From a virus: a DNA stretch of 30,369 nucleotides. The position numbers and the translations under genes are program-made. Shown here piece after piece: positions 4,627 through 22,552 of this stretch. The notes under the pieces are model-generated. The model was not told the origin of the DNA. It did not search any database and was given only the letters and a program-made list of their open reading frames with translations. The stretch spans positions 1 to 30,369 of the IMG/VR virus record IMGVR_UViG_3300023278_000373; one strand, written 5' to 3'. Every line of letters begins with the position of its first letter. Positions within the stretch are counted from its first letter, which is position 1.

Positions 4627-4646
4627 GAGTGTTATACCCTTTTAAT

Positions 4647-5081: not shown

Positions 5082-5085
5082 AGAC

Positions 5086-5334: not shown

Positions 5335-5357
5335 ATAATTTCCTAATGATAATTAGT

Positions 5358-5385: not shown

Positions 5386-5447
5386 CTCTAGGTATCAACT
5401 ACTTAACTAAGTTAAGCTTATGAAAGATTAGTGCGCCTCGCACTAGA

Positions 5448-6308: not shown

Positions 6309-6339
6309 GTGAATTAACTCCAGTTAATTATAAATTATA

Positions 6340-7128: not shown

Positions 7129-7184
7129 AGTGTTACTTCTCCGTCTATATAATAGATTGTGGAGTTAATTTTATGACACAGGCT

Positions 7185-7418
7185 CTATAGTGTAATAGAG
7201 TTGTCCGTATCGATGAGTTTTGTCTGTTCCTCTAATGTGATCAGCATATTAAGGATAGACAGTTGCCCTTGTACTTCATAAAGGGACTTTTCATCTTTAA
7301 TAGTAGATACGTTATTTAAAGATTCAGCCATAAGGGTTAATTCTTCAATTAAGTCCCTCCAACCGTCTACTTCAAACAAACGATATCTACCATCAAAAAA
7401 TTCTTTATCTTCTTTCAT
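7185..7418 (-). CDS. Small conserved protein between portal and scaffold
   Basis: This is a 77-residue protein with the segment FEVDGWRDLIEELTLMAESL and a later LYEVQGQLSILNMLITLEEQ. This W-x3-I-E-L helix followed by G-Q-L-x-L-x-x-L-x-x-L resembles short helical proteins found between portal and scaffold genes of many podoviruses; their role is not known to me. Its start overlaps the portal stop by one base, so translation is probably coupled. A role in procapsid assembly is a guess from position. Confidence 0.6.
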   Translation of the reverse strand: MKEDKEFFDGRYRLFEVDGWRDLIEELTLMAESLNNVSTIKDEKSLYEVQGQLSILNMLITLEEQTKLIDTDNSITL

Positions 7419-9382
7419 TACTCGCTAAGTGCCTTTCTTGCGTTAGCTATGTTTAATAGAGTCTCTGACTCAAGATGCTTCATTTCAGGGACTGTACGTA
7501 CAATCTTAGACTCTAAAGTAGTGACTTCCATCTGCTTCTTCTGCAGATCCATCGCTTTACTTTGTATTTCTAGTATACGTTCTTGTGCGTCAGTGTCGTT
7601 AGGCATCTTAAGTGCAGCATCAGCTTGCTTACTGTATGCAGAGGCTAGTGCATCTTGTGTCTTAGCACTGACTAGTTTAGTGTCTGCTTGTTTAGCTTCC
7701 ATTTCCATCTGCATGTGCTTTTGCTGCATCTCTTGCTCTTGTTGAGCGTTAGGATTAGGCTCCATCATTTTCTTAACAGCTGCCATCATCTCTTCACGGT
7801 TATTTAAGCTAGAGTTCTCGAAGATAGACAACAATAATAGGTTAAACGCCTGTGACTCAGGAGGAATCATAGACATTAGCTGTGTAGTTTGTGTGCTCTC
7901 TAGCTCTTTAGCCATAATACCCATAGTAGAGTAAGGAACAAACTGATAATCCAGCACAGGATAACGCTCTGTATCAAACTGCATCTTACGATAAGCTGCT
8001 TTCTGAATGAAAGGTATCATAAATGTTGTTTGGAAGTTACCTAGAGTACGCTTCTGACGCTTAATAGATGCTGCTTGCATCATAGACATACCAGAAGCAG
8101 TGCCATTACGGGCATTTCCTGCCATACTGGTCGCTGAGTCCATAGCGCCAGTAGCCATCTGAATCATACGCTCTAATTCAGCAGATTCTTGGAAAGTATG
8201 CTGTTGTAACTGACCAAAGTTAAATGGCTGGATAATAGAACGTGGATCACCATTAGTTAAGATGGTTTTACCAGCTCTAATGTCTAGTTTAGTACCACGA
8301 GGGATACGTGTAGCGTCCATAGCCATCATTGGATGTGTAGTAAGTGCTAGAGCATCGATACGACCACGTAATTCAGCATCTAATGCTTTCTGTGGGTTAT
8401 ATCCTTTCTCACATACACCGCGTCCCCAGAACTTATTAGGTACTAGATCATGCTGATAAGCGATAAAAGGACGATCCTTCATTAAATAAGGATTTTCTTC
8501 TGCTCGTAATACTACATTGTCATTCGCTAGCGTAACTACTGCCTCTACTAGCTCGTCTTTGTCGTAGTCAAACTCTACACCTAAGTCAGCGCCCTTAGAT
8601 AAGTAACGCTTAGGGACTAAACCCCAGTATTCAGTGATCTTAACACTGTCATCTTCAGAGGCAACGTGATCTTCTGGATCAAATCCAAAGTCATGTATAC
8701 CATTACTACTCGCTCCTAATGGAACGTCTCGATAAGTCCCTGCTTCAATGCCCTTGACAACGTGGTAACGGGGTTTAGTAACCTCCTGCGCTACTCCTAA
8801 CGCTGAATCAATAGACAAGGCAGCAGGATCAATTATGAATTCCTTCGGGGATACTGCTTCCAAAGGAACTGCCATTCTCAATACTTCAACTACTCTACGT
8901 TCAGTTGTACCATCTAAGGTACCTTCTACTTGTGTTTCTACTATGACACGCTCAGTTTTCTCTTCTAAGCATACTTTAGCGATACCAGTACCGTAGATAG
9001 CACCATTCAAGAAAACCTCACAGATGGCAGATTTAGCCCCATCACGCTCAAGATCTTCTTGTAGTACCTTTCGTAGATAAGCAACATCTTCAGGATTCTC
9101 ATCTAAGATGTCATCACGAATATCGAACCACTTATCACGACCGAAGGTGGCTTCTTCTAATTCAGCGACAGTAGACTCAACAGCCTGCTGTAGTGCTGGG
9201 TTTATTAGACGTGAAGACTCAGAATCACGTAGTTTATCAGACTCTGCCCAAATACCACGCCATAGACGATAATACTCATCCCACTTCTTCTGGTAGTTCT
9301 GGTCACGATGGTTCTTCCAAGTTTCTAATCGTTCAGACAACCAAGAGGCTAGTCCTTTAAACTGGTCTTCTTCGTTCATCAT
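7418..9382 (-). CDS. Portal (head-tail connector) protein
   Basis: This 654-residue protein would form the dodecameric ring at the capsid vertex through which DNA is packaged and ejected. The N-terminus (LASWLSERLETWKNHRDQNY, then YYRLWRGIW) and the following VESTVAELEEATFGRDKWFD are typical of podovirus portals, as is the central ITEYWGLVPKRYL and FWGRGVCEKGYNPQK. The last roughly 120 residues form a Gln/Met/Lys-rich coiled coil (QQEQEMQQKHMQMEMEAKQ and onward), comparable to the barrel helix of P22-type portals. It lies 2 nt after the terminase gene with AGGA upstream, in the canonical terminase-portal-scaffold-capsid order. There are two consecutive ATG codons at the start. Confidence 0.93.
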   Translation of the reverse strand: MMNEEDQFKGLASWLSERLETWKNHRDQNYQKKWDEYYRLWRGIWAESDKLRDSESSRLINPALQQAVESTVAELEEATFGRDKWFDIRDDILDENPEDVAYLRKVLQEDLERDGAKSAICEVFLNGAIYGTGIAKVCLEEKTERVIVETQVEGTLDGTTERRVVEVLRMAVPLEAVSPKEFIIDPAALSIDSALGVAQEVTKPRYHVVKGIEAGTYRDVPLGASSNGIHDFGFDPEDHVASEDDSVKITEYWGLVPKRYLSKGADLGVEFDYDKDELVEAVVTLANDNVVLRAEENPYLMKDRPFIAYQHDLVPNKFWGRGVCEKGYNPQKALDAELRGRIDALALTTHPMMAMDATRIPRGTKLDIRAGKTILTNGDPRSIIQPFNFGQLQQHTFQESAELERMIQMATGAMDSATSMAGNARNGTASGMSMMQAASIKRQKRTLGNFQTTFMIPFIQKAAYRKMQFDTERYPVLDYQFVPYSTMGIMAKELESTQTTQLMSMIPPESQAFNLLLLSIFENSSLNNREEMMAAVKKMMEPNPNAQQEQEMQQKHMQMEMEAKQADTKLVSAKTQDALASAYSKQADAALKMPNDTDAQERILEIQSKAMDLQKKQMEVTTLESKIVRTVPEMKHLESETLLNIANARKALSE

Positions 9383-9384
9383 AT

Positions 9385-10632
9385 TTAATATCCTGCCTCA
9401 ATGTCCATTGGTTCCCACTCTTCTACATCGATAGAGTTGGTAAAGTCAGCTACTGATACTTGGTCTATGTACGCTAAAGCATCTAGTAGGTCATCGTGTA
9501 CTTGTGGGCTAGGGAAAGACATCATTTGATCTTCAAAATGCTTCCAGTCCCTATCCTCATTAAACTTAATCTTATTGTGTTCCATACGACCTTGAAGAGA
9601 CCATGTAATACGATCAGTCTTCTTCTTACCACCGTGGGTTACATCAGTGATAACTACCCATCTTCCATTGATACGCATCAGGTCTTCTAAATAAGGCATG
9701 ATAGCGTTCTTTAGTGCGCCTGCTTCAACACCTACTGTAGATGCTTCGTTATCTATAGAAGAGTTAAGGATGTTCTCCGCTGTATTCTTGATATTCCACC
9801 TACCGTGTAGGATGTCCTTTACCCACCATTCATCACCACAGATCTTAACGATTGCAATGGCTGTTTCATCTAGCTTAGATCCTTTAGATCCACGATCCTT
9901 AGAGGATTGCTCAAAACCAGCAGGGTCAACTGCGATAACGTAGTGACCATAGTCAGGTTCTTTAGATGTTTGAAACCATTCATCCTTAAAGATACCACCA
10001 GAGAAGGATTCAAAAGAAGCCTCGAACTCCTGACGGAATGCTTGTGAAGACATACTACGTCTAGCTATTTCTATCTCTTTAGGGTCTATCAGTGGGTTAT
10101 CGGTAGAGTTAAAGCTAAACGCTTCCCACTCAGGGTCTTCTTGTGCTGCTATAAATGTATCGTAGAAATGGTTACGTCCTTCAGGTGTTCCGATAAACAG
10201 AGCTTCACCTTTCACGTCAGCTAAGGTAGGTCGAATGATCTGCTCGAAGACCGAAGGCTTCATAAACGCATATTCATCCATCACTACATAGGCCAGACCT
10301 ACACCTCGTAGTGTATCTGGTCTATCACTACCTTTAAGATAGATCTTCCTATCATTAATCAAGGTAATCGTAGCTGTGTTCTCGTGGGTAGACTTTATCA
10401 CATCTCTGCCCAAGTCCTTCAGCAATCCCCATAGAATGTCTTTCGCTTGCTGAAAGGTAGGGGCTATATAGAATATATCCTTGCTTTCTGATTCTAGACC
10501 TTTGATGAGTAAAGTCCATGCTGCAAGGTAACTCTTTCCGAAACGTCTACCACACGCTGCCACTTTAAAACGAGCTTTAGAATTGAAGATCTCCATCTGT
10601 GCAGGTGTTAGACTAACCTGTATATCACTCAT
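9385..10632 (-). CDS. terL: Terminase large subunit (packaging ATPase and nuclease)
   Basis: This 415-residue motor cuts concatemeric DNA and pumps it into the procapsid through the portal. Walker A is CGRRFGKS at residues 27-34; Walker B is YVVMDE at 115-120; a coupling motif IGTPEG follows. The RNase H-like nuclease half has an acidic residue in VIAVDPAG (Asp236), a second in GVEAG, and HDD at 379-381 near the C-terminus. These cover both domains with no gaps, so the enzyme looks intact. It overlaps the small terminase gene by 8 nt and is followed 2 nt later by the portal gene. The packaging type (pac, cos or direct terminal repeats) cannot be read from these motifs alone. Confidence 0.95.
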   Translation of the reverse strand: MSDIQVSLTPAQMEIFNSKARFKVAACGRRFGKSYLAAWTLLIKGLESESKDIFYIAPTFQQAKDILWGLLKDLGRDVIKSTHENTATITLINDRKIYLKGSDRPDTLRGVGLAYVVMDEYAFMKPSVFEQIIRPTLADVKGEALFIGTPEGRNHFYDTFIAAQEDPEWEAFSFNSTDNPLIDPKEIEIARRSMSSQAFRQEFEASFESFSGGIFKDEWFQTSKEPDYGHYVIAVDPAGFEQSSKDRGSKGSKLDETAIAIVKICGDEWWVKDILHGRWNIKNTAENILNSSIDNEASTVGVEAGALKNAIMPYLEDLMRINGRWVVITDVTHGGKKKTDRITWSLQGRMEHNKIKFNEDRDWKHFEDQMMSFPSPQVHDDLLDALAYIDQVSVADFTNSIDVEEWEPMDIEAGY

Positions 10633-11095
10633 CTTCTTCTTCTTCTTCTAATACAGACAATGCTATTGCATCGAATGCTTTACTGCTTTCTTTCTTAGAT
10701 TTCTTAGTAGCTTCTTGTAAACTATGCTCAATGACCTGACCACCTACGTGCTCTATGGCCTCTTGAGCTTTGTTACCCAATTGGGCTACAGTGATGTTGA
10801 TAGACTGACCACCTTCATGTTTAACTTCAACATCTCTCTTAGGTGGTAAGATACGATCTAGACACATCTTAAGACATGTAGTATCTCCCTCCATAGCCAT
10901 CTCTAATACTTTGTTGACTATCTCAGGGCCTCTCTCAGACATCAGTTCTCTAGAGAGTTGTGTATATTTACCTACACTTCCTTTAGGCCTACCTGATGGA
11001 TTTAAAGGAGGCATCCCTTTGTATAATAACGGGCTACCCTTATGTTTAATCTTAGGCTTACCAGTACGTGGACTTAGTTCTTCTTTGTTGCTCAT
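10625..11095 (-). CDS. Probable terminase small subunit
   Basis: This 156-residue protein starts at the ATG at 11,093-11,095 (MSNKEELSPRTGKPKIK). The motif NPSGRPKGSVGKYTQLSREL near residue 35 is the N-terminal hallmark of small terminase-like proteins of the DUF5681 kind, and a short helical oligomerisation region with CLKMCLDRILPPKRD follows. The C-terminus is Lys-rich and then strongly acidic (SVLEEEEEDE). It would recognise the packaging site and recruit the large subunit, whose gene it overlaps by 8 nt. The frame is open to a TTG at 11,144-11,146 and an ATG at 11,138-11,140, which would add up to 17 hydrophobic-aromatic residues (MYLESPHLW); no strong Shine-Dalgarno sequence supports any of the three, so the start is uncertain. 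Confidence 0.75.
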   Translation of the reverse strand: MSNKEELSPRTGKPKIKHKGSPLLYKGMPPLNPSGRPKGSVGKYTQLSRELMSERGPEIVNKVLEMAMEGDTTCLKMCLDRILPPKRDVEVKHEGGQSINITVAQLGNKAQEAIEHVGGQVIEHSLQEATKKSKKESSKAFDAIALSVLEEEEEDE

Positions 11096-11182
11096 TAAGA
11101 TATAGACTCTTGACCACAGATGTGGGGATTCTAGATACATAACCAATTAGGTACTGGTAATGATAATAATAGGATTGTGAAC

Positions 11183-11221
11183 TGTATAGACATACAGACA
11201 TCTATAAAGAGATATAGACAT
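11183..11221 (-). promoter_or_regulatory. Pair of ATGTCTAT elements facing the terminase operon
   Basis: On the minus strand the octamer ATGTCTAT occurs twice (11,214-11,221 and 11,186-11,193; 28 bp apart), with a third partial copy ATGTCT-GT between them. The copies point toward the terminase gene that starts at 11,095. Each is followed by a -10-like extension (TATATC, TATACA). The same octamer pair occurs upstream of SSB at 16,736-16,776. It could be an activator or repressor site or part of an extended -10 promoter. Confidence 0.5.
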
Positions 11222-11280
11222 CCAATGAGGTAGTTCCGATTTAGTGCTCATCACTTTAGTGATTCAGCTCGACCCGTATG

Positions 11281-11370
11281 ATTTACTTAAGTAGTCTTTA
11301 GAGTAATGCTTATTATTATTTTTATATATCTTTAAGTATTAATTCTAAAGAGTACCTAAGCGTCTTAAGT
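11281..11370 (-). promoter_or_regulatory. Two tandem copies of an element shared with the SSB promoter region
   Basis: Read on the minus strand, the copy at 11,325-11,370 contains AGAATTAATACTTAAA (11,331-11,346), identical to 16,657-16,672 on the plus strand. It also shares an upstream CTTAAG and CTCTWWAG. A shorter copy at 11,281-11,314 keeps CTCTAAAGA and TACTTAAG but lacks the middle six bases. Both copies face the terminase operon. Confidence 0.6.
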
Positions 11371-11375
11371 CACTT

Positions 11376-11404
11376 ATACTAACATATTTAGAGTCAAAAG
11401 TCAA
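11376..11404 (-). promoter_or_regulatory. Candidate sigma70 promoter toward the terminase operon
   Basis: On the minus strand TTGACT (11,404-11,399) is separated by 17 bp from TAGTAT (11,381-11,376). A second TTGACT (11,397-11,392) follows immediately but has no -10 at the right distance. The transcript would start just before the shared CTTAAG element. This is a match to consensus only. Confidence 0.35.
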
Positions 11405-12042
11405 CCTATATTATGTCTTCTATTGTAATATAGTCTATTTGGTCTACAAAGTCTACTTCTGTCCTATTAAATATACATTGATTGTCTGAATATTAGGTCT
11501 GCCCCGTTACTCCCCGTTACCCCTAATTGTACCCTCCTCCCCTATTTTCCTTCTCATGTGTCTATGAGCCTATATGCTTATTACTCTGTATCTCACAGGG
11601 GGCCCCCCATGGCACATGAGCATTCATCTGTCAACTTCAGCGACTAATCCGCCATAATGTGACTAGATCACACCTAATAGTCACGGGTTGACACGGGTGT
11701 GCTAAGTGTGCCTAACAGGCCGTGTGTATTGTGTGGCATAGGTGACTTGGGTGTGTCAAGTATGACTTGTGAGTATTAAGTTTCCAAAAGAATTGACATA
11801 AGAGAGAACGTGAGCGTGGTATTTAGTACACTTCTAGCCATGTCGTAATGAGGTAAGTATTGCGCATTTAGAACAGTAGCTTATTGTGTATACATGAATA
11901 CCCTTGAGAGCTCGTGTAAGCTCCCGTGTGGGCTTTGTGCCTATGTCTTATACATTGCATAGGGTAGACACCGAACGTAGCTTAGACGGCAAATGTCTCA
12001 TATAGATAACTTAATGTCGTATCTAGATATGTCTAGTTGTAG

Positions 12043-12090
12043 TGTCTATGTTATTCGCGCAGGCGCGTTTCTTTATAGACAATATATAAT
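12043..12090 (+). promoter_or_regulatory. Nested inverted repeat beside a perfect -10 box
   Basis: TGTCTAT (12,043-12,049) pairs with ATAGACA (12,075-12,081). Inside lies CGCGC-AG-GCGCG (12,056-12,067), followed by TTTCTTT. TATAAT follows at 12,085-12,090 with no -35 box at 16-18 bp, where the GC-rich repeat sits. This could be an early promoter controlled by a protein that binds the repeat. It lies 138 bp upstream of the first early gene. Confidence 0.4.
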
Positions 12091-12227
12091 TAGGGTATGT
12101 CGTGTTTAAGTATGTTTAGGTCGTGTATAGGTCTAGCATTAATTTATTATTGTTTATACTTAACCCAACAACAACGCAGAAGGGCCATATGGGCTAAATG
12201 CGAATCATTATCATTAAGGAATAAAAC

Positions 12228-12431
12228 ATGAGCAAAGCAACTTACACACTTAAGGCAACTAACCCACACGGTCGCACAATGGCTCTTACTTTCACTGACA
12301 TTAACTTAATGCTGGATAGTGAGTTGGCTGCTATCAAGATGGGCTTCACAACTCATTCATACGAATCAACCAAGATCATTAAAACAGAAGCCGAAGCCAT
12401 GAGCCAGTTGGCTTGGTTTATGGACGTATAA
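12228..12431 (+). CDS. First early gene, hypothetical small protein
   Basis: This 67-residue protein begins MSKATYTLKATNPHGRTMAL and ends with the helix AEAMSQLAWFMDV. A short antiparallel beta start followed by a helix is likely; I do not recognise a family. The start has AAGGA 8 nt upstream. As the first gene after the divergent region it should be among the earliest expressed and a candidate for host takeover, by position only. A GGGGC hairpin follows 10 nt after the stop. Confidence 0.65.
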   Translation: MSKATYTLKATNPHGRTMALTFTDINLMLDSELAAIKMGFTTHSYESTKIIKTEAEAMSQLAWFMDV

Positions 12432-12441
12432 ACAAACAAAC

Positions 12442-12455
12442 GGGGCTACGGCCCC
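12442..12455 (+). promoter_or_regulatory. Intercistronic GGGGC-TACG-GCCCC hairpin, copy 1
   Basis: A perfect 5-bp GC stem with a UACG (UNCG-class) tetraloop starts 10 nt after the previous stop. It is followed directly by AAGGAG, the ribosome site of the next gene. There is no U-run on the plus strand, so it is not an intrinsic terminator. It is the first of four copies with the same stem. Confidence 0.8.
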
Positions 12456-12467
12456 AAGGAGCATCAC

Positions 12468-12692
12468 ATGAATAATCAAGACACTAAGCCACAATTTGCA
12501 AGCCGTGTAGTAGCAAAGAAAGACTTGCAAGGAATACTGAAAGCCATGCGTAAGCATCCCTCTATGTCTGTAGAGAAAATCAGCGGGGGCTATAAAGTAA
12601 CAGATAACGAAGGTAGATTAGCATTAAAGGCCATGACGGGTAACTATGCCTATCTAGTGCAATTCAATAAAAGTTGGTTTAGCCACGTATAA
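12468..12692 (+). CDS. Hypothetical small basic early protein
   Basis: This 74-residue, moderately basic protein has an N-terminal helix (KKDLQGILKAMRKHPSMSV) and then beta-like ISGGYKVTDNEGRLALKAM and YAYLVQFNKSWF. No family is recognised. The ribosome site AAGGAG abuts hairpin copy 1, with ATG 6 nt later. A role as a nucleic-acid or host-protein binder would fit its charge but is speculative. Confidence 0.65.
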   Translation: MNNQDTKPQFASRVVAKKDLQGILKAMRKHPSMSVEKISGGYKVTDNEGRLALKAMTGNYAYLVQFNKSWFSHV

Positions 12693-12703
12693 CAACACAA
12701 TAA

Positions 12704-12717
12704 GGGGCTTCGGCCCC
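12704..12717 (+). promoter_or_regulatory. Intercistronic GGGGC-TTCG-GCCCC hairpin, copy 2
   Basis: The stem is identical to copy 1, with the canonical C(UUCG)G loop, beginning 11 nt after the stop. The GGAG ribosome site begins 3 nt after the stem. The leader TAACAACACAATA before the stem is also found before copy 4. Confidence 0.8.
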
Positions 12718-12731
12718 AATGGAGCAATACA

Positions 12732-12965
12732 ATGATAGACTATAATTTAACACCTAATGAAATGGCTAAGCTTGAAACATATAATAAAATCGTTAATTGC
12801 GCCTTTGGCGATGGCATTAAAGATACATACCCTAATATGACGGATAAGGAAGCTTATGCCACGGATGTAGCGGCAGATAAGATTTACTCTAGACTATATA
12901 AATTATTAGGTATAGCCAAGATACATAAGAAAATGGACATAGCGAAACAGGTAAATAATTCATGA
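12732..12965 (+). CDS. Hypothetical small helical early protein
   Basis: This 77-residue, mostly helical protein has LTPNEMAKLETYNKIVNCAF, then KEAYATDVAADKIYSRLYKLL and a Lys-rich end. No family is recognised. Translation starts 7 nt after GGAG. Its stop overlaps the ATG of the next small gene (ATGA, 12,962-12,965). Confidence 0.6.
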   Translation: MIDYNLTPNEMAKLETYNKIVNCAFGDGIKDTYPNMTDKEAYATDVAADKIYSRLYKLLGIAKIHKKMDIAKQVNNS

Positions 12966-13141
12966 ATACATACGGCGTTACCTCAACAAATAACGGGTAT
13001 ATTGACACGTCCACAACCGAGACAGGCGCGAAAAATTACGCCACTAGGCACGGTTATAACGAGGTTTATATACGATATAATAGCGGCTATCATATTGAGA
13101 TAGTAGCGACTAAACATAACGGAAAATGGAAGGCGGCTTGA
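12962..13141 (+). CDS. Hypothetical small protein, 59 residues
   Basis: The ATG overlaps the preceding stop codon (ATGA), and the frame runs 59 codons to a TGA one base before the next ATG. The N-terminal half is Thr/Asn/Gly-rich. The C-terminal half (GYNEVYIRYNSGYHIEIVA, then TKHNGKWK) looks like a three-stranded sheet with alternating aromatics. The exact fit between neighbours and the overlap argue that it is real. No family is assigned. Confidence 0.6.
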   Translation: MNTYGVTSTNNGYIDTSTTETGAKNYATRHGYNEVYIRYNSGYHIEIVATKHNGKWKAA

Positions 13142-13142
13142 T

Positions 13143-13412
13143 ATGGAACTATATTTACAAACTAATAGTGTCGATAGTAACGGTGACAAGTGCGCGCTTC
13201 TAAGCCAACAGCTTGAGCATAAACTTGCCCCCATGTATCACCACTTACACGGGCTTAGCTACACGGCAACGGGTTACGGCTCACGCCTACCCACTCAATA
13301 CATGGTAAAGGTGGTAAATAGATGGCGTCGTGTCTATTGCGTGTGTTTTTCTAATGTAGGTACGTTATACATCGGCAACCTATCTGATAACCAAATAATA
13401 AAGGATTATTAA
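13143..13412 (+). CDS. Hypothetical early protein
   Basis: This 89-residue protein has an N-terminal segment with CALLSQQLEHKLAPMYHHLH and then GLSYTATGYGSRLPTQYMV and VNRWRRVYCVCFSNVGTLYI, suggesting one helix followed by a beta sheet with a Trp-Arg-Arg turn. It starts one base after the previous stop, with AAGGCGG in the end of that gene. GC is higher than in its neighbours, hinting at a different recent history. Function unknown. Confidence 0.6.
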   Translation: MELYLQTNSVDSNGDKCALLSQQLEHKLAPMYHHLHGLSYTATGYGSRLPTQYMVKVVNRWRRVYCVCFSNVGTLYIGNLSDNQIIKDY

Positions 13413-13413
13413 A

Positions 13414-13569
13414 ATGGAATTAACTAATAGCAACGACTGGCAGACCCAAGCGCGTGGAACCAATGACAGCGAGTACCAGATTTATCTGGCTTGCGCTGGC
13501 GACAGTGAAGGAAACGATACCTTTACAGGTCAACCTCTAAAAACCTATGATGAATGGTTAGAAAGCTAA
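13414..13569 (+). CDS. Hypothetical acidic small protein, 51 residues
   Basis: The ATG lies one base after the previous stop codon, with AGGA 8 nt upstream. The 51-residue product is acidic and rich in Asn, Asp, Gln and Thr, with YQIYLACAGDSEGNDTFTG and a C-terminal YDEWLES. No family is recognised. The spacing and ribosome site support it; its short length keeps confidence moderate. Confidence 0.5.
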   Translation: MELTNSNDWQTQARGTNDSEYQIYLACAGDSEGNDTFTGQPLKTYDEWLES

Positions 13570-13594
13570 CTGGAATAACAAAACGGAACAACAC

Positions 13595-13756
13595 ATGAAA
13601 ACTGAAGACTTAAAAGCATTAATTTTAAACAATAAAGCATTAATTGAGCATCGTTACATGGACGCTCTTTTAAACCCAGACACTCAACCAAAGGCTATGG
13701 AGATACTAATTGAAGAATTATCCAAAGCAACCCTAGCAGCTAAAACATTCCAATAA
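13595..13756 (+). CDS. Hypothetical small helical protein, 53 residues
   Basis: The frame runs from an ATG preceded by CGGA to a TAA 9 nt before hairpin copy 3. The product is all-helical in appearance: LKALILNNKALIEHRYMDAL, a short turn with NPDTQPK, then MEILIEELSKATLAAKTF. A helical hairpin is the likely fold. No family or function is recognised. Confidence 0.5.
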   Translation: MKTEDLKALILNNKALIEHRYMDALLNPDTQPKAMEILIEELSKATLAAKTFQ

Positions 13757-13765
13757 AAACTAGCA

Positions 13766-13779
13766 GGGGCTTAGGCCCC
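13766..13779 (+). promoter_or_regulatory. Intercistronic GGGGC-TTAG-GCCCC hairpin, copy 3
   Basis: It has the invariant 5-bp stem with a UUAG loop, starting 9 nt after the stop. It is followed at once by AAGGA, the ribosome site of the next gene. The arrangement is the same as copy 1. Confidence 0.8.
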
Positions 13780-13791
13780 AAGGAACATACT

Positions 13792-13983
13792 ATGAAGCCT
13801 TCTACACTAAAGCACGTAGAAATATGTGGCATTGAATGGGCTGATTATCCAGACTTTGTTGACGCGTACATTGTGTACGCTGAAGACTCTGAAGGTAACG
13901 CCTTAACTGAAGATCAGCTAAACAAGGTAGCAGAAGATCATCCAGACTTTGTACAAGAGATGGCACAAGAACAAATCCTTTAA
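13792..13983 (+). CDS. Small acidic early protein
   Basis: This 63-residue, strongly acidic protein contains VEICGIEWADYPDFVDAYIV followed by AEDSEGNALTEDQLNKVAED. The I-x-W-x-D-Y-P-D-F-x-D-A-Y-I signature followed by G-x-x-L-T-x-D-x-L is one I associate with short proteins of unknown role found in many phages. Acidity and size would suit a protein that mimics DNA or binds a host enzyme, but nothing in the sequence proves it. AAGGA lies 7 nt before the ATG, immediately after hairpin copy 3. Confidence 0.65.
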   Translation: MKPSTLKHVEICGIEWADYPDFVDAYIVYAEDSEGNALTEDQLNKVAEDHPDFVQEMAQEQIL

Positions 13984-13993
13984 CAACACAATA

Positions 13994-14007
13994 GGGGCTT
14001 AGGCCCC
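13994..14007 (+). promoter_or_regulatory. Intercistronic GGGGC-TTAG-GCCCC hairpin, copy 4
   Basis: It starts 10 nt after the stop and is preceded by TAACAACACAATA, as is copy 2. Unlike the other copies, 19 nt of A-rich leader separates the stem from the next ribosome site (CGGAG, 14,028-14,032). Confidence 0.8.
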
Positions 14008-14041
14008 AACATAAACAACAACACAAACGGAGTATATACAA

Positions 14042-14344
14042 ATGATCTACGCAAAAGAAATCACAAACGGTCAAGAATTAGCTAACGAGTTTAAAGACTA
14101 TGGACGGGGCGATCAGTTCAGTCCTGAGGCTTTTGAGGCTTTGTTTCAATTACTAGATGAATGCTACGATGATGCAGGTAGCTATAAGCTTGATGTTATA
14201 GGGCTGTGTTGTGACTTCATGGAATACGATTCAATGGAAGAGCTACAGGGCAACTATGACCACATTGGAAGCTTAGAAGAGCTGCACGACAATACACTAG
14301 CACTTGAGCTGCCTAGCGGTGGCTTACTAGTACAACAGTTTTAA
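14042..14344 (+). CDS. Acidic early protein of a widespread phage family
   Basis: This is a 100-residue, very acidic protein. Residues 20-62 (GRGDQFSPEAFEALFQLLDE, then YKLDVIGLCCDFMEYD) carry the pattern QFS-x-E-A-x-x-A-L-F-x-x-L-(D/E)-E followed by L-D-V-I-x-L-C-C-(D/E)-(F/Y)-x-E-Y. I recognise this as a family of short proteins found across phages, prophages and plasmids; I know no proven function. The C-terminus (DNTLALELPSGGLLVQQF) also fits that family. The charge makes antirestriction by DNA mimicry thinkable. It is not recognisably Ocr or ArdA. CGGAG is 9 nt before the start. Confidence 0.7.
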   Translation: MIYAKEITNGQELANEFKDYGRGDQFSPEAFEALFQLLDECYDDAGSYKLDVIGLCCDFMEYDSMEELQGNYDHIGSLEELHDNTLALELPSGGLLVQQF

Positions 14345-14364: not shown

Positions 14365-14832
14365 ATGACTTATGAAAAAAGAAAATGTAACCATTGTAAA
14401 GAAGATTTAGAGATAGGTGTTAACTGGTCTAGCTCCATGTCTAAACGATATGATTATAAATGCTTAAAATGTAGGAGTATATTAGATAGGCCTTACGAGT
14501 TAGGTAGAAAAAGACTTGCAAGGCCTGATAATGAAAGAAAAAGACAATACAAAAAAGATAACCCACATAAAGTATTAGCGAATAATGCAAAGCGCAGAGC
14601 TTATAAGTTAAATCAAACCCCTGCCTACTATGATCATGAAGCAGCACTTGTAATATATAAACAAGCTGCTAATTTAAATAAGATACACGGCAAAAGAGCA
14701 TTTCATGTTGACCATATAATACCATTAAAAGGAAAAAAGGTTTCTGGTTTGCACGTTCACACAAACTTACAAATACTATCAGCCAAGGATAATATATCTA
14801 AAGGCAATAAATTAATAGAGGAATTACTATGA
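14365..14832 (+). CDS. HNH endonuclease with N-terminal zinc ribbon
   Basis: This is a 155-residue protein. CNHC (Cys8, Cys11) and CLKC (Cys33, Cys36) form a zinc ribbon. The HNH core is FHVDHIIPLKGKKVSGLHV with His114, Asp116 and His117, followed by NLQILSAKDNISKGNK containing the metal-site Asn and His positions. The middle is Lys/Arg-rich and would bind DNA. It is probably a free-standing homing-type nicking or cutting enzyme, not a packaging nuclease, because it lies among early genes. Its first residues (MTYEKR) echo those of the next gene (MSYEKR), which it overlaps by 4 nt. GGAG is 9 nt upstream of the start. Confidence 0.88.
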   Translation: MTYEKRKCNHCKEDLEIGVNWSSSMSKRYDYKCLKCRSILDRPYELGRKRLARPDNERKRQYKKDNPHKVLANNAKRRAYKLNQTPAYYDHEAALVIYKQAANLNKIHGKRAFHVDHIIPLKGKKVSGLHVHTNLQILSAKDNISKGNKLIEELL

Positions 14833-15059
14833 GCTATGAAAAGAGAACAGTGCGCCATTTGGCAGCACTAAACGACCGAAGTACACCACAATACAAGAGA
14901 TCATTCGCCGCTGAATGCCTTGGGGCCCTGTACATGAGCTATAGACTAGACTGTAGGCAGATGAAAGACTTGTTTATGAGTGATCATGGGCTGTCAGATA
15001 GCTCTGCAGAGGCTATCATAGAATTCGGTAAACGATCACAGAAACTGGGAGGTATGTAG
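14829..15059 (+). CDS. Hypothetical helical early protein
   Basis: This is a 76-residue protein. After MSYEKRTVRHLAAL come SFAAECLGALYMSYRLDCRQ and DLFMSDHGLSDSSAEAIIEF, likely two or three helices. No family is assigned. It overlaps the HNH gene by ATGA, with GAGG about 9 nt upstream. Its first 24 bases are very like the first 24 of the HNH gene, suggesting that the endonuclease inserted in front of it while rebuilding a start. The encoded function is unknown. Confidence 0.6.
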   Translation: MSYEKRTVRHLAALNDRSTPQYKRSFAAECLGALYMSYRLDCRQMKDLFMSDHGLSDSSAEAIIEFGKRSQKLGGM

Positions 15060-15060
15060 T

Positions 15061-15264
15061 ATGAAAATTGAAGCATACGAACAATTAAGCGGCGCCCTAG
15101 TAGTTGATATCTATGGGACTGTGTCTATAAAAATACAATCTAATGACGGGGCAGGGCAATGGTACGAATTAGAGCCCATGTCTAATAACTTGATTTGGCT
15201 ATCAGATGATATAGACAAAGCAGCTTTAGACGTGGCACTAGTAGAATTTAAAGGGGGTGTATAA
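15061..15264 (+). CDS. Hypothetical small beta-rich protein
   Basis: This is a 67-residue acidic protein with alternating hydrophobic strands (GALVVDIYGTVSIKIQ, then GQWYELEPMSNNLIWL) and a C-terminal helix with DKAALDVALVEF. It has GGAGG 8 nt before the ATG, inside the end of the previous gene, and its stop is one base before the GTG of the next. Not recognised. Confidence 0.6.
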   Translation: MKIEAYEQLSGALVVDIYGTVSIKIQSNDGAGQWYELEPMSNNLIWLSDDIDKAALDVALVEFKGGV

Positions 15265-15265
15265 A

Positions 15266-15433
15266 GTGCATAACTTAATAGAATATACTATAGGTAGAGT
15301 GGTACAACTTCAATACGGCTTGCAACCTTATGGCATTATTGCTAGTGTTAACCAAGACAATGGTCAATGCTTAATCAAAACGGCAAAGGGCCCAAGAGTC
15401 TATAAATTTACAAGCTTAAAGGTGATTGTATGA
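15266..15433 (+). CDS. Hypothetical small protein with GTG start, SH3-like
   Basis: A GTG (15,266-15,268) follows the ribosome site AAAGGGGG about 9 nt upstream, and the frame runs 55 codons to a TGA that overlaps the next ATG. The product is beta-rich and basic: YTIGRVVQLQYGLQPYGIIA, then VNQDNGQCLIKTAKGPRVYK. G-R-V-V-x-L plus G-I-I-A-x-V resembles a small SH3-like barrel as found in nucleic-acid or adaptor proteins. No ATG would serve this frame. Confidence 0.5.
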   Translation: MHNLIEYTIGRVVQLQYGLQPYGIIASVNQDNGQCLIKTAKGPRVYKFTSLKVIV

Positions 15434-15597
15434 TAATCAATAAAAGTAAGATGGTAGAAGTTGACGCTGTTTATTTAGCAGCTATTGAGCGAGATAGCTT
15501 TTTCCTACAGTGTTTAGACGCCTGTGGCGCTCCATACACGGACGTTTGGGAGGAAGCGATGCAAGTGTTTGACAGTGAGGTAGAGAATAATGACTAA
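15430..15597 (+). CDS. Hypothetical small acidic protein
   Basis: The ATG overlaps the previous stop (ATGATAA context, 15,430-15,433) with AAAGGTG upstream. The 55-residue acidic product has MVEVDAVYLAAIERDSFFLQ and a helix with VWEEAMQVFDSEVE. It carries two cysteines (CLDAC) that might pair or bind metal. Function unknown. It overlaps the next start by 8 nt. Confidence 0.5.
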   Translation: MIINKSKMVEVDAVYLAAIERDSFFLQCLDACGAPYTDVWEEAMQVFDSEVENND

Positions 15598-15736
15598 ATC
15601 TAATAAGGCCCTAACGAAAAAAGAGGCAAGCCGCTATAATGTAATAAAGAACGTTAGCGAGACGCTAAAGGCACGTAAACAAATAAAATTAAGGCGAAAG
15701 CTAGAAGACATTAGAGAGAGGTGGGACTATGCGTAA
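15590..15736 (+). CDS. Hypothetical very basic small protein
   Basis: The ATG lies inside the end of the previous gene, with GAGG about 9 nt upstream. The 48-residue product has about 16 Lys/Arg and looks like one long helix (EASRYNVIKNVSETLKARKQ, then IKLRRKLEDIRERWDY). High positive charge suggests contact with nucleic acid or with an acidic partner. It overlaps the next gene by 8 nt. Confidence 0.5.
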   Translation: MTKSNKALTKKEASRYNVIKNVSETLKARKQIKLRRKLEDIRERWDYA

Positions 15737-15839
15737 ATGGTTTAATAAAACGGATTGGGAATGGGTACTATTAATTGTCACAGGCGCTATATTATGGTTC
15801 GCTTTAATTGGCGGTGTCTTATTGGGGTATGCGATATGA
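15729..15839 (+). CDS. 36-residue single-pass membrane peptide
   Basis: A very short frame starts at the ATG at 15,729, preceded by GAGAGGTGGG. Residues 1-11 are charged and aromatic (MRKWFNKTDWE), and residues 12-35 are one continuous hydrophobic helix (WVLLIVTGAILWFALIGGVL). The start is inside the previous gene and the stop overlaps the next ATG, so it is embedded in a chain of coupled genes, which supports it being real. It should insert in the host inner membrane with the N-terminus in the cytoplasm by the positive-inside rule. A superinfection-exclusion or membrane-modulating role is possible, inferred only from its form. Confidence 0.55.
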   Translation: MRKWFNKTDWEWVLLIVTGAILWFALIGGVLLGYAI

Positions 15840-16027
15840 TTAGTATATTAAAGTCTAAATCGTACAGAGCTCTAATAAAGCCGCGTGGGGCTGATTCGTT
15901 CCACTGGTATATAAGTGGTATACTAGACGGTAAACAGCACTCACAGAGCGATATAGAAGCTTTAAACAAGTATCAAAGGCTAGGGTATAAGATCAGAGCT
16001 AAAATAGAACAACAAAAGGGGTATTAA
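15836..16027 (+). CDS. Hypothetical small basic protein
   Basis: This 63-residue protein starts at an ATG that overlaps the preceding stop (ATGA); the frame is open further upstream but those starts lie within the membrane-peptide gene. The product, with MISILKSKSYRALIKPRGAD, then FHWYISGILDGKQHSQSDIE and KIRAKIEQQKGY, is basic and probably a small alpha/beta domain. No family is recognised. Confidence 0.55.
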   Translation: MISILKSKSYRALIKPRGADSFHWYISGILDGKQHSQSDIEALNKYQRLGYKIRAKIEQQKGY

Positions 16028-16029
16028 TT

Positions 16030-16380
16030 ATGATTGAATTTAACTTAAATAATGAGAATGGGGACATTGCTATTAAAACACGTAATGGAATGATCATTAT
16101 AGATGAATCAGACAGAGACGAGCTATTAGACAGGTTAAGGTACTCAAGGGATCAAGAGAGGTCTGTAGAGACTAATTCAGAGACTTACCAGACTAGGGCG
16201 GCATTACAGTCTAAACTAGCCTTACATGAGCTTATGCAAGATCAAGAGTATTGGCGAAAGAAGTGGGTAGCTACTAACTCTAAGCATATGAATGAATATA
16301 TAAATTATCATACGGCAGACCAAGCTAGAAATGCAGCACTTAGGTCTGGCTTAGAATTAGATGATTTACTATTATTTTAA
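16030..16380 (+). CDS. Hypothetical acidic/helical early protein
   Basis: This is a 116-residue protein. The first 30 residues are beta-like (IEFNLNNENGDIAIKTRNGM), and the rest is helical and charged (DRDELLDRLRYSRDQERSVE, then ALQSKLALHELMQDQEYWRK, with a C-terminal ELDDLLLF). AAGGGG is about 9 nt before the ATG. I recognise no domain. The coil suggests a dimer or a host-protein binder. Confidence 0.6.
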   Translation: MIEFNLNNENGDIAIKTRNGMIIIDESDRDELLDRLRYSRDQERSVETNSETYQTRAALQSKLALHELMQDQEYWRKKWVATNSKHMNEYINYHTADQARNAALRSGLELDDLLLF

Positions 16381-16398
16381 AGTTATGAGGTGGTTATA

Positions 16399-16608
16399 AT
16401 GAAATGTAAATCATGTGATGTACTACTACTAGATGATGATGATATAGAATTATGTCGTAAATGTATTAAACAAGGAGACAAACTATCAGGAGCAAATGCA
16501 GAGGACGAAGACGTGTATTATGAGTCTGATACAGACACCTCATTAGATGATTGTCTAGAAATAAGTCTTTATACAGACATAAATGAATCAGACCGTTTAC
16601 TATCATAG
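16399..16608 (+). CDS. Small acidic zinc-ribbon protein
   Basis: This is a 69-residue protein from the ATG at 16,399 (GAGGTGG lies about 5 nt upstream; a GTG 9 nt before the ATG overlaps that ribosome site and is less likely). CKSC (Cys3, Cys6) and CRKC (Cys19, Cys22) bracket VLLLDDDDIEL, making one rubredoxin-like zinc knuckle pair. The remainder is extremely acidic (AEDEDVYYESDTDTSLDD). Small acidic zinc ribbons from phages can contact transcription machinery, so a role as an RNA polymerase-binding regulator is possible; this is inference. It is the last gene before the second regulatory gap. Confidence 0.6.
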   Translation: MKCKSCDVLLLDDDDIELCRKCIKQGDKLSGANAEDEDVYYESDTDTSLDDCLEISLYTDINESDRLLS

Positions 16609-16630
16609 TGAAACATGCTAAACTAAAAAC

Positions 16631-16677
16631 AGTTCTTAAGCACTTAAGCACTCTAAAGAATTAATACTTAAATATAT
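16631..16677 (+). promoter_or_regulatory. Shared CTTAAG/AATTAATACTTAAA element upstream of SSB
   Basis: Two CTTAAG sites (16,635-16,640 and 16,643-16,648) are followed by CACTCTAAAG and AGAATTAATACTTAAA (16,657-16,672). The last 16 bases are identical to the minus strand of 11,331-11,346 in the other control region. A third CTTAAG lies at 16,705-16,710. The element faces the SSB operon. Confidence 0.6.
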
Positions 16678-16726
16678 TTTAAAGTTTAAAACAAAAGAGT
16701 TTCACTTAAGAGCCCATAGAACTATA

Positions 16727-16779
16727 GATAGAGTGATGTCTATCAAAACAATAGACTATACATAAGGTATGTCTATAAA
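16727..16779 (+). promoter_or_regulatory. Pair of ATGTCTAT elements and possible promoter for the SSB operon
   Basis: ATGTCTAT occurs at 16,736-16,743 and 16,769-16,776, 33 bp apart; the last copy ends 30 bp before the SSB start. The first is half of GATAG-n8-CTATC (16,727-16,744). ATAGAC at 16,751-16,756 faces the second copy across 14 bp. TAGACT (16,752-16,757), 16 bp spacer, TATAAA (16,774-16,779) could act as a weak -35/-10 pair. The same octamer pair occurs before the terminase gene. Confidence 0.5.
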
Positions 16780-16806
16780 CTTAATCAGAAAAGAGAGTAA
16801 AGAATT

Positions 16807-17205
16807 ATGTTTTCAGCAACAGAAGGTTATGTAGCATTCAGTAACATACTAACAGAAGATCAGTACCAAGGTCAGGACGTTGGTTATAACGTCACTCTAT
16901 GTATGGAGCAAGACGAGGCTACTAAATTAGCAGACTCAGAAGTAGTCGTAAAGAGCTATAAAGGTGTAGCTCAACGTAAGTTTAAGTCTGGATATAATAT
17001 TGGTGTCTTAACAGAAGACGGTCAAGAGATGCAGTTAAGCGAAGAGCTACCACGAGGTGCTAAAATACGCGTACAGTGGAAGCATGGGCCTAAGCATCCT
17101 CAGCATGGTGTGTCCACATACGTCAACAGGATCAAAGTATTGGACATGGGCAATGGAGATATTCCGTTAGCCTTTGAAGAGTCCGAAGAAAACAAAGACT
17201 TCTAA
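16807..17205 (+). CDS. Single-stranded DNA-binding protein, T7 gp2.5-like
   Basis: This 132-residue protein begins FSATEGYVAFSNILTEDQYQ followed by GYNVTL, which matches the beginning of T7 gp2.5-type SSBs. Strands of a compact OB fold follow, with RGAKIRVQWKHGPKHPQHGV. The C-terminus is acidic and ends in Phe (EESEENKDF), the tail that docks on polymerase and helicase in T7. It is much shorter than T7 gp2.5 (232 residues), so loops or insertions are missing. It should coat ssDNA at the fork and coordinate replication. It opens the replication operon, directly after the shared regulatory cassette. The gene context (primase-helicase, polymerase) supports the call. Confidence 0.82.
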   Translation: MFSATEGYVAFSNILTEDQYQGQDVGYNVTLCMEQDEATKLADSEVVVKSYKGVAQRKFKSGYNIGVLTEDGQEMQLSEELPRGAKIRVQWKHGPKHPQHGVSTYVNRIKVLDMGNGDIPLAFEESEENKDF

Positions 17206-17237
17206 ATCCCTTTAGAACATCCTTAGCATGATGTAAA

Positions 17238-17271
17238 ACTGCTATTTTTATCCTCTAAAGAAAATAACAGT
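17238..17271. promoter_or_regulatory. Imperfect inverted repeat upstream of the SANT-like gene
   Basis: ACTGCTATTTT (17,238-17,248) and AAAATAACAGT (17,261-17,271) pair over 11 positions with one mismatch around a 12-nt loop that holds CCTCTAAAG. There is no trailing U-run, so it is not a normal terminator. CTCTAAAGA also occurs in the shared regulatory element. It could be a processing hairpin or a protein-binding site. Confidence 0.4.
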
Positions 17272-17305
17272 CCAAATCTTAGTTAAATACTAAGGAGAAT
17301 AACGA

Positions 17306-17587
17306 ATGAGTCTTATATTCAAACCAAAAATATCTGATAAGTACAAAGCAGATCCTTTAGAAAGGTTAACAAGAAGCAGGAAAAAAAGAATACCATGGAA
17401 TAAAGCTGATATAGAAAAGCTAGTAGCATTAAGGGCTATGCATGTACCTTACAAAGAGTGCGAGAAGCTCCTTAATAGGACTGAGGGATCTTGTGCTGTT
17501 AAGTTACATTTTACAGGCGCTCTTGCTGAAATAGAAGCTATCAGAAAGAAACTAATTAATGACATAGTAGGGAAAGATAATGACTGA
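17306..17587 (+). CDS. SANT/Myb-like DNA-binding protein
   Basis: This 93-residue basic protein contains, at about residues 28-70, PWNKADIEKLVALRAMHVPY, KECEKLLNRTEGSCAVKL: a Trp, three-helix spacing and an R-T-E-G-S turn typical of SANT/Myb or GcrA-like helix-turn-helix domains. The flanks are Lys/Arg-rich. It would bind DNA in a sequence-specific manner. It is produced from the second operon, between SSB and primase, so it could be the regulator of the shared ATGTCTAT/CTTAAG cassettes or of late genes; that link is inferred from position. AAGGAG lies 9 nt before the ATG. Confidence 0.65.
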   Translation: MSLIFKPKISDKYKADPLERLTRSRKKRIPWNKADIEKLVALRAMHVPYKECEKLLNRTEGSCAVKLHFTGALAEIEAIRKKLINDIVGKDND

Positions 17588-17765
17588 GCTACAGAAAAAA
17601 GTATTTGCAAAGAAGTCTTTAAAAGAAAAAATAGCTGAATCTAAAAAGCGTCTTAAATTAGAGACTGAGATAGCTAACTACCAAGAAGGCATCAGTAGAG
17701 GTAGTTTTGTTTCCTATAATCAATCTAAAATAAATGAGTTAACTGAAGAGCTGAGGGCCTTATAA
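17580..17765 (+). CDS. Small coiled-coil protein
   Basis: This 61-residue, Lys/Glu-rich helical protein has VFAKKSLKEKIAESKKRLKL and a C-terminal QSKINELTEELRAL. It overlaps the SANT-like gene by 8 nt and the next gene by one base (TAATG), so all three are probably translated together. No family is recognised. A partner for its DNA-binding neighbour is conceivable but not shown. Confidence 0.55.
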   Translation: MTELQKKVFAKKSLKEKIAESKKRLKLETEIANYQEGISRGSFVSYNQSKINELTEELRAL

Positions 17766-17998
17766 TGCTAATAGAACTACCAGATGAAGCTGTAGATAAT
17801 ATTGTAGTCCATGAATTAAAGAACTACTATACAATCCTTGATGATGCCGTTGCAGACGAAGGGTGGTATGGGTCTATAAAAGAGAGAGATCAAGACAGGG
17901 TAACATTAGTAGCTATAATCAACATTCTAAAGCATTACATAACAACAGAGGAGCACGACCAATGGCTACAAACTATAAAGCAGGTAACTCAGAAGTAG
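17765..17998 (+). CDS. Hypothetical acidic helical protein
   Basis: This 77-residue acidic protein has VDNIVVHELKNYYTILDDAV, then WYGSIKERDQDRVTLVAIIN and HYITTEEHDQWLQ, suggesting a helical bundle. It is of a type often found just before the primase-helicase in T7-like phages, with unknown function. The end overlaps the primase-helicase start by 37 nt, an unusually long overlap. GAGGG lies about 9 nt before the ATG. Confidence 0.55.
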   Translation: MLIELPDEAVDNIVVHELKNYYTILDDAVADEGWYGSIKERDQDRVTLVAIINILKHYITTEEHDQWLQTIKQVTQK

Positions 17999-19623
17999 AG
18001 AGCAGAGGCCCATGTTCACAATGTGGTTCTAAAGATAATTTAGTTAAGTATAAAGATGGGCACTCCACTTGTTATTCCATAGGGTGTGGTCACTTTATTA
18101 AAGGGGATGGATCAGTGAGCAATACACCAGCACAGTCTGTACCAAGTAAGCCAATAAACCCTGCTGATCTAACTAAGGGCACTAGAGGCGCTATACCAGA
18201 ACGTAGGCTATCACAGGACATCTTAGATAAGTTCGGTGTTACGGTTGAGTATGATGCTAATGGTAAGATATCTAAGCACCATTACCCGTACTATGATTCA
18301 GACGGTAAGTTAGTCGCTTTAAAGACACGGGTAGTAGAAGGTAAGAAGTTCTTTTGTAGTGGTGACTTAGGTCAAGCAGGTCTATTCGGACAGAATGTAT
18401 TCGATGGGCGTGGTGGGCGTTATATAACTATCACAGAAGGTGAAATAGATGCCTTAGCAGTAAGCTCTATGTTCCACGGTAAATGGCCTGTAGTGAGCTT
18501 AAAGAACGGCTCAGGCAGTGCAGTCAAAGGTGTTAAAGAAGCACTGGAGTTCCTAGAGACCTTCGACAGTATTATACTATGTATGGATCAAGATAATGCA
18601 GGGCAAGAAGCAGTAAAGAATATAGTAGATCTATTCTCACCTAACAAAGTCAAAGTGATGAGGATGCCTCTTAAAGACGCTTCTGAAATGCTTATGAAAG
18701 GTAAGGTCAAAGAGTTCACTGAATGTTGGTGGGCCGCTAAAGCACATCGCCCAGCAGGCATAGTGTCATTGTCTGATAACTCTCTTTGGGATAAGTTCTT
18801 AAAGCGTGGTACAGAAGATGTAATACCTCTACCTAAGTCATTTGGTGGTTTAAATAAGATGATGAATGGTGGTATTGCTGCAGGAGAGATAACTGTACTA
18901 GGGGCCTTAACGTCTATCGGTAAGAGTACGGCAGTATATAACCTTACCTACGATATGTTAATGGAGTCTGATAGGACAATAGGCTGTGTGTTTCTAGAGG
19001 CTCAACCAGAAGAGATATTAGAGAAGCTAGTCTCTCTACATGAGGGCGTTAACATCTCTAATGTACCAGCAGAAGCCCGTGACTATGCTAAGATTCATAA
19101 GGGTTATCTTGAAATCATTGAATCAGATAGACTACATATTCTAGATCATCATGGCTCATTAAGTGCTGATGCTTTGTTCTCTATGATGAGATACTTAGTT
19201 AAAGGGATGGACTGTGATGTGCTTATTATAGATCCTCTACAGGCCGCTGTAATATCTAATGAGAATGGTATCATCGATGAGTTTATGGATAAGTGTTTGA
19301 AGCTAGGTGCAGAAACAGGTGTTAGTATTATCATTGTAAGTCACATGCGTAAACCTGCAGCTAAGGATGTACATGATGTGAATGAATACGACATGAAAGG
19401 CTCAGGTTCTATCAATCAGATTGCATTCAATACTATTCTACTTAGCCGTGACAAGTTAGCAGAAGATGAGTATGCAAGGAACTGTACTAAGATACAGCTA
19501 GTTAAGTGTAGACGTACAGGCAATACAGGCACAGGCGGTTGGTTATACTATAATCCAGCTACAAGTAAGATGGAGGCTGGGCAAGCTCCAAAGATACAGG
19601 AGACTGCTAACTATGACTTCTAA
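17962..19623 (+). CDS. Primase-helicase, T7 gp4-like
   Basis: This 553-residue enzyme starts at the ATG at 17,962 (GAGGAG 8 nt upstream; an upstream extension of 33 codons lacks a good site). The zinc-binding domain has Cys18, Cys21, Cys37 and Cys42. The TOPRIM primase core has TEGEIDAL (Glu159, Asp163) and MDQDNAG (Asp209, Asp211). The RecA-like helicase has Walker A GALTSIGKS (314-322), Walker B DVLIID (419-424), then IIIVSHMRKP and KGSGSINQIAFNTILLSRD. All domains are in T7 gp4 order, so it should make primers and unwind DNA as a hexamer. It shares 37 nt with the preceding gene and 11 nt with the polymerase gene. Confidence 0.95.
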   Translation: MATNYKAGNSEVESRGPCSQCGSKDNLVKYKDGHSTCYSIGCGHFIKGDGSVSNTPAQSVPSKPINPADLTKGTRGAIPERRLSQDILDKFGVTVEYDANGKISKHHYPYYDSDGKLVALKTRVVEGKKFFCSGDLGQAGLFGQNVFDGRGGRYITITEGEIDALAVSSMFHGKWPVVSLKNGSGSAVKGVKEALEFLETFDSIILCMDQDNAGQEAVKNIVDLFSPNKVKVMRMPLKDASEMLMKGKVKEFTECWWAAKAHRPAGIVSLSDNSLWDKFLKRGTEDVIPLPKSFGGLNKMMNGGIAAGEITVLGALTSIGKSTAVYNLTYDMLMESDRTIGCVFLEAQPEEILEKLVSLHEGVNISNVPAEARDYAKIHKGYLEIIESDRLHILDHHGSLSADALFSMMRYLVKGMDCDVLIIDPLQAAVISNENGIIDEFMDKCLKLGAETGVSIIIVSHMRKPAAKDVHDVNEYDMKGSGSINQIAFNTILLSRDKLAEDEYARNCTKIQLVKCRRTGNTGTGGWLYYNPATSKMEAGQAPKIQETANYDF

Positions 19624-22551: not shown

Positions 22552-22552
22552 A

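Follow-up and report, generated by a model that had tools for sequence, protein, structure and literature searches.

Repeated units of hairpin and ribosome site as probable gene-exchange joints in the early region of a marine podovirus

What is the role of four hairpins with one and the same stem between the small early genes of a phage, a class of genes that turn over quickly and of which many likely act in host takeover or anti-defence? The window, that is, the whole virus record of 30,369 nt analysed here, encodes a portal protein, a terminase, a T7-like DNA polymerase, a primase/helicase, and an endonuclease VII, together with a Cas4-domain exonuclease and a Gp2.5-like single-strand-binding protein, the latter a weak match. 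The nearest relative of its polymerase is that of Pelagibacter phage HTVC115P, at 50% identity. The structural genes run leftward, ending at 11146, and small rightward genes are found from 12228 on. All four hairpins are contained in a hypervariable early block (12160-14110, plus strand) that is absent or replaced in the related record L007, whose sequence agrees with that of the window at 96% on both sides of the block, over 4469-12159 and 14813-22702.

The initial annotation had described four GGGGC-N4-GCCCC hairpins located 9-11 nt after stop codons, and an exact search for this pattern (GGGGCNNNNGCCCC) in the whole window finds precisely those four, all on the coding strand and between co-directional genes. 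The mean count in 100 dinucleotide shuffles of the window is 0. Hairpin 1 (GGGGC-UACG-GCCCC, 12442-12455, plus strand like the other three) stands 10 nt past the TAA stop of gene A (12228-12431) and is followed by the linker, SD and start of gene B, AAGGAGCATCACATG (12456-12470, plus strand). Hairpin 2 (GGGGC-UUCG-GCCCC, 12704-12717), 11 nt past the TAA stop of gene B (12468-12692), leads into the same elements of gene C, AATGGAGCAATACAATG (12718-12734, plus strand), and hairpin 3 (GGGGC-UUAG-GCCCC, 13766-13779), 9 nt past the TAA stop of gene G (13595-13756), into those of gene H, AAGGAACATACTATG (13780-13794, plus strand). These three directly adjoin the ribosome site, as had been claimed for three of the four, and hairpin 4 (GGGGC-UUAG-GCCCC, 13994-14007), 10 nt past the TAA stop of gene H, lies 21 nt upstream of the SD (GGAG) of gene I (14042-14344). 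The genes 3' of the four hairpins start within 12-34 nt. When folded in context, the base pairs of all four hairpins have a predicted probability of 0.95-1.0. Rfam gives no match in the window at the gathering score, a 14-nt hairpin being too short for most of its models. Judging from its sequence, the hairpin is the front (5') part of a repeated unit of hairpin, SD and ATG, which had been missed at first.

The behavior of this unit can be followed at gene H (13792-13983, plus strand), which encodes a protein of 63 aa with a weak match to PHROG 28889 and which, with hairpins 3 and 4 as its borders, forms an exchangeable cassette. Its orthologues in IMG/VR (n = 14, identity 70-89%) keep the hairpin directly before SD and ATG in 14 of 14 cases. 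The genes 5' of these orthologue units fall into seven groups (L633/L636; L634/L635/L638/L644; L637; L639; L640/L641; L642/L643/L646; L645), where the upstream gene of L636 was mis-framed in the grouping and its upstream DNA matches that of L633 at 0.96. All seven are unlike gene G of the window, which brings the groups to eight. In pairs from different groups, the identity of the upstream DNA is about 0.55-0.63, which is the background level, against 0.74-0.97 for the unit and 0.78-1.0 for the start of gene H. Local alignments in seven comparisons with swapped upstream genes place the start of homology at -7 to -14 from the hairpin, the position of the upstream stop codon. In L642 and L644, the 1,872 nt from -8/-7 on agree at 99.8%, the genes immediately upstream are unrelated, and the upstream gene of L642 resembles one found about 620 nt further up in L644. 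Within the flanks compared, the window and L633 have in common only -14 to +215 relative to hairpin 3, that is, the hairpin-SD-gene H cassette. What is exchanged is the gene upstream, whereas the unit remains with the gene downstream, so that exchange boundaries coincide with the hairpins. The hairpin is not essential to gene H, since it is absent in more distant relatives of the gene (46%). A separate observation concerns L633 and L636, which are 93% identical over 3 kb: the hairpin loop and SD linker before gene H agree at 0.83 only, compared with 0.96 upstream and 0.93 in gene H, and the unit looks as if it had been converted from another copy.

Other genes carry the same header without being related. 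Ten GGGGC-headed genes (from the window, L025, L026, L639, L640, and L643) have no mutual similarity, and the string of stem, SD and ATG at the gene B junction also heads three unrelated genes, found in L639, L640, and L643. The sequence GCCCCAAGGAGCATCACATG is identical before four GGGGC-headed genes, with the loops TACG, TTCG, GAAA, and GAAA. Comparison of L025 with the near-identical L026 and L027 reveals the gain or loss of one small gene precisely at a unit, the extra gene being flanked by direct repeats GGAGTATAGGACAATGA. A sister clade (L009, L010, L013, L014, L017, L018, L033) has a hairpin with the stem GGGCC[C/T] and a 4-nt A/T loop, likewise located between stop and SD in the position of the GGGGC units. 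Here the upstream gene is common and the downstream genes are unrelated, which indicates the same kind of exchange, and L009 and L033 have only the unit in common. Between clades, the stem sequence differs and the architecture is kept. The initial annotation had made its proposal depend on conservation of the stem in relatives, and the stem is indeed kept at their stop/SD junctions. The comparison of all these records shows a unit that heads genes of no mutual relation, remains attached to the gene behind it, and lies where gene swaps and one gain or loss have their breakpoints.

Two further features of these junctions were noticed. At one homologous junction of the sister clade, the loop reads ATTT or its reverse complement AAAT (L010, L014, and L018 versus L013 and L017), which suggests an inversion of the hairpin. 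The hairpin-less ribosome-site leader of gene G (window 13571-13597, AATAACAAAACGGA[AG]CAACACATG) is found also before an unrelated gene in L633, with L636 listed too; because such a ribosome site recurs before unrelated genes, exchange may not depend on the hairpin as such.

RNA tetraloops of exceptional stability come in two classes, UNCG-like and GNRA. The loops of 20 units (TTCG in 10, TACG in three, TTAG in three, TTTG in two, and GAAA in two) are all UNNG or GNRA on the sense strand, and the four of the window are all YNMG on the coding strand. In 18 aligned UNNG units, which come from related, non-independent sequences and have no probability attached, the ten stem positions show three substitutions in total, one of them a G.U pair (L637), and loop positions 1 (U) and 4 (G) are invariant while positions 2 and 3 vary. 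The earlier picture of a fixed stem with a variable loop consequently holds for the stem, but not for free variation of the loop, as relatives have only UNNG or GNRA. In the sister stem, the closing pair is C-G or T-A. The near-fixed stem and the UNNG or GNRA loops of the sense strand argue for selection on the RNA, and the loop, G.U, and paired C-G/T-A features would be expected of a selected coding-strand RNA hairpin, not of a DNA joint alone. Common descent, instead of selection, could account for part of the sequence similarity between units. In three contexts (L637, L639, L026_v) the hairpin is improbable in silico, with competing structures, and in L640 its probability is 0.52.

These units are probably modular translation-initiation units, in which the hairpins would protect RNA or delimit its segments and the repetition of the units would provide joints for gene exchange. 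Each unit would consist of an A-rich spacer, a 5-bp GC hairpin with an exceptionally stable tetraloop, the SD, and the AUG, in this order, and would head an exchangeable small gene within the early region that is hypervariable in this group of phages. On a polycistronic early mRNA, the hairpin would fold in the gap between the terminating and the initiating ribosome. Once folded, it would most likely block or slow nucleases, protecting the cistron on either side, which is also the role ascribed to the hairpin at the 5' end of T4 gene 32 mRNA, and it would delimit segments of the mRNA without terminating transcription. At the DNA level, recombination between units, proposed because they are repeated and similar, would exchange genes with intact expression signals, plausibly aided by the Gp2.5-like annealing protein and the exonuclease of the phage. 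A bolder version, put forward tentatively and with some doubt, sees in the unit a natural standardised gene header: a repeated part that would make an incoming small gene expressible whatever its upstream neighbor, and whose repetition would drive a precise exchange of single genes with no need of promoters, terminators, or a dedicated recombinase.

Several other explanations were weighed against this one. The units might be DNA-level recombination joints only, with the hairpin hitchhiking in a repeated boundary sequence and having no role in RNA. The breaks of gene swaps do fall at units, hairpin-less ribosome sites are also common to unrelated genes, and the AAAT/ATTT loops of the sister clade look like hairpin-mediated inversion at the DNA level. 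However, identity suffices for a joint, and a hairpin with a special loop is not required; the restriction of 20 of 20 loops to UNNG or GNRA on the sense strand, a loop that varies on a stem that does not, the G.U pair, and the paired C-G/T-A difference all speak against a purely DNA-level role, which appears rather unlikely. RNA processing, where an endonuclease (RNase E or III) would cut near the hairpin and the hairpin would cap the new 3' or 5' end, is decidedly unlikely. The usual substrates of RNase III are far longer than a 5-bp stem. In favor of processing, each hairpin appears to be flanked by A-rich single-stranded spacers, as RNase E would need, and a primer-extension end has been found at an intergenic TTCG-loop stem of phage 7-11, due to either processing or reverse-transcriptase stalling (PMC8948821). 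The suggestion of the initial annotation that the hairpin shapes coupling found no support. A hairpin that insulates or exposes the ribosome site, or that tunes translational coupling via mRNA structure, would be suitably located, in the space expected to be left free between a terminating ribosome and an initiating one, and the window genes with a hairpin have a slightly high predicted accessibility (p = 0.058). Yet, when the hairpin pairs are penalised in silico, the accessibility of the ribosome site stays the same over 19 junctions (mean 0.53 vs 0.51, p = 0.23), and this explanation is considered highly unlikely.

Termination of transcription fares no better on either strand. A terminator scan flags all four hairpins, on the minus strand only, because the hairpin spacer read in reverse is T-rich. 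Minus-strand intrinsic terminators directed against antisense transcripts from the leftward right-arm genes would agree with these flags, but the T-tracts are interrupted by G and A (TTTGTTTGTT, TATTGTGTTG, TGCTAGTTTT, TTATTGTGTT), their T-richness follows from the A-rich ribosome-site leaders, the stable loop types are on the plus strand, and it is hard to see what use four terminators linked to ribosome sites within 1.6 kb would have. The antisense-terminator reading fits poorly and is very improbable. On the plus strand, GC hairpins with a UUCG loop are often terminators, and a run of at least 4 T is present in at least 18 of at least 72 short-linker matches among those listed from IMG/VR. 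At the hairpins of the window, however, the 8 nt that follow contain 0, 1, 0, and 1 T (hairpins 1-4), so that a U-tract is missing at all four, and the next genes start close by. With no T-run and no plus-strand call from the scan, the initial view that these are not normal terminators stands. Chance palindromes are at odds with the zero expected from shuffles, and the likelihood of plus-strand terminators or chance palindromes is close to negligible.

The preferred reading, exchangeable initiation units with a protective hairpin, has parallels in other phages. PeSL cassettes (promoter-early stem-loops), reportedly described in T4-type phages by Arbiol et al. 2010 and Comeau et al. 2014, are said to be small stem-loops repeated between the small accessory early genes of a hyperplastic region, where recombination between cassettes shuffles, inserts, and deletes genes. 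The units share with them the hyperplastic region and the gene shuffling at cassettes. Contrary to the units, which have a ribosome site instead, the PeSL cassette has a strong sigma70-like early promoter; its stem-loop is an effective terminator, whereas the sequence here predicts none; and it belongs to T4-type myoviruses, not to a podovirus with a T7-like polymerase. The units therefore shuffle like PeSLs but are not filed as such, because the promoter and terminator features fail.

Intercistronic C(UUCG)G hairpins of T4 and other phages are credited to Tuerk et al. 1988 in a passage of PMC8948821, which also states that a 5' CUUCGG hairpin stabilises T4 gene 32 mRNA. The resemblance to T4 pointed out in the initial annotation has support: the T4 genome itself has three GGGGCUUCGGCCCC hairpins, both kinds are intergenic and on the coding strand, and their tetraloops appear to be of the same class. 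A loose search of T4 yields 21 C(UUCG)G hairpins, the three with the GGGGCUUCGGCCCC core included; some are then followed by an SD and others by T-runs, and GGAG follows at least two of those three. By the C(UUCG)G pattern, the window has one UUCG loop, one UACG, and two UUAG, and its relatives mostly UUCG and some GAAA. The units thus differ from the T4 hairpins in loops that also include UUAG, UUUG, UACG, and GAAA on a nearly invariant stem of 5 bp, and in being tied to a downstream start codon and to gene-swap breakpoints.

In cluster K mycobacteriophages, the SAS, a 13-bp GGGATAGGAGCCC repeat over the ribosome site, is found at a subset of small non-structural genes, and about half have just upstream the inverted repeat of the ESAS, of 17 bp, imperfect, and with spacers of 4-13 nt; SAS/ESAS are conserved with the downstream gene family (PMC3203893). 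They resemble the units in the repeated ribosome-site sequence, the upstream inverted repeat, and the conservation with the downstream gene. Neither GGGATAGGAGCCC nor the 17-bp imperfect inverted repeat is found in the four junctions, there is no sequence relation, and the phages differ. Short conserved boundary sequences have also been proposed for lambdoid mosaicism, with homology serving modular exchange, as discussed in a passage of PMC3029335. Short common sequences at gene borders are the likeness, but the borders here combine an RNA hairpin with a ribosome site and are repeated within one genome. The best reading of the units is a promoterless, terminator-less variant of the T4-type intercistronic hairpins and PeSL cassettes.

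A census of IMG/VR, whose figures are indicative because it used samples only and genes called by a simple script, gives for exact GGGGCTTCGGCCCC, among the matches listed, at least 119 intergenic sense against at least 2 antisense cases, at a median distance of 8 nt from the stop. Among the listed matches with a start within 25 nt, at least 37 of at least 72 have no T-run above 2. A control with a GAAA loop gives, again among the matches listed, at least 56 sense against at least 3 antisense cases and a median of 9 nt after the stop. Since the control behaves similarly, sense placement after stops seems general for stable tetraloops; a placement rule specific to UUCG was discarded. With the loop left free and GGAG required, at least 40 of at least 83 loops among the matches listed are YNMG. 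Because of the IMG/VR and T4 counts, the hairpin architecture is regarded as widespread and of a known kind. Among cultured relatives, HTVC115P, the closest by its polymerase, has no comparable intergenic hairpin in its first 25 kb, and none of 50,697 phage records matches gene H. A search for relatives of gene B in IMG/VR found none.

To our knowledge, most mosaic junctions have no recognisable boundary sequence. The joint proposed here is visible, repeated, and short, and joins an RNA element to a ribosome site. The units offer tangible material for experiments on how genes remain expressible when they are exchanged one by one, and hairpin headers can serve to locate early accessory genes in phages from metagenomes. 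They would also carry the PeSL idea beyond T4-type myoviruses, to a group of marine podoviruses whose version has neither promoter nor terminator.

No promoter-like match lies inside the four junctions, and the 23 matches in the region are at chance level (22.5). In relatives, an early-promoter-like repeat, TTGACG-N18-TATAATAGTTGCAAGTTAAG, precedes various early genes (L638:408, L640:805, L641:4423, L643:643, L644:5021 and 5682), with shorter forms in L633, L636, L645, and L007. These promoter repeats are located at early junctions other than the hairpin junctions. The left breakpoint of the replaced block relative to L007 (about 12159) is at a promoter-like TTTATAC, after which L007 continues with ACAATAGTTGCAAGTTAAG and the window with TTAACCC. 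A shortened homologue of gene E (13143-13412, PHROG 3436) occurs in L007 at about 7945-8019 and stands there after the homologue of gene I, whereas gene E of the window stands before gene I; this displacement is consistent with shuffling. At the other end of the window, three large adjoining proteins of 892, 376, and 724 aa are encoded on the minus strand (24206-26884, 26871-28001, and 28035-30209); they have no PHROG match or significant Pfam match and are probably virion proteins of the right arm.
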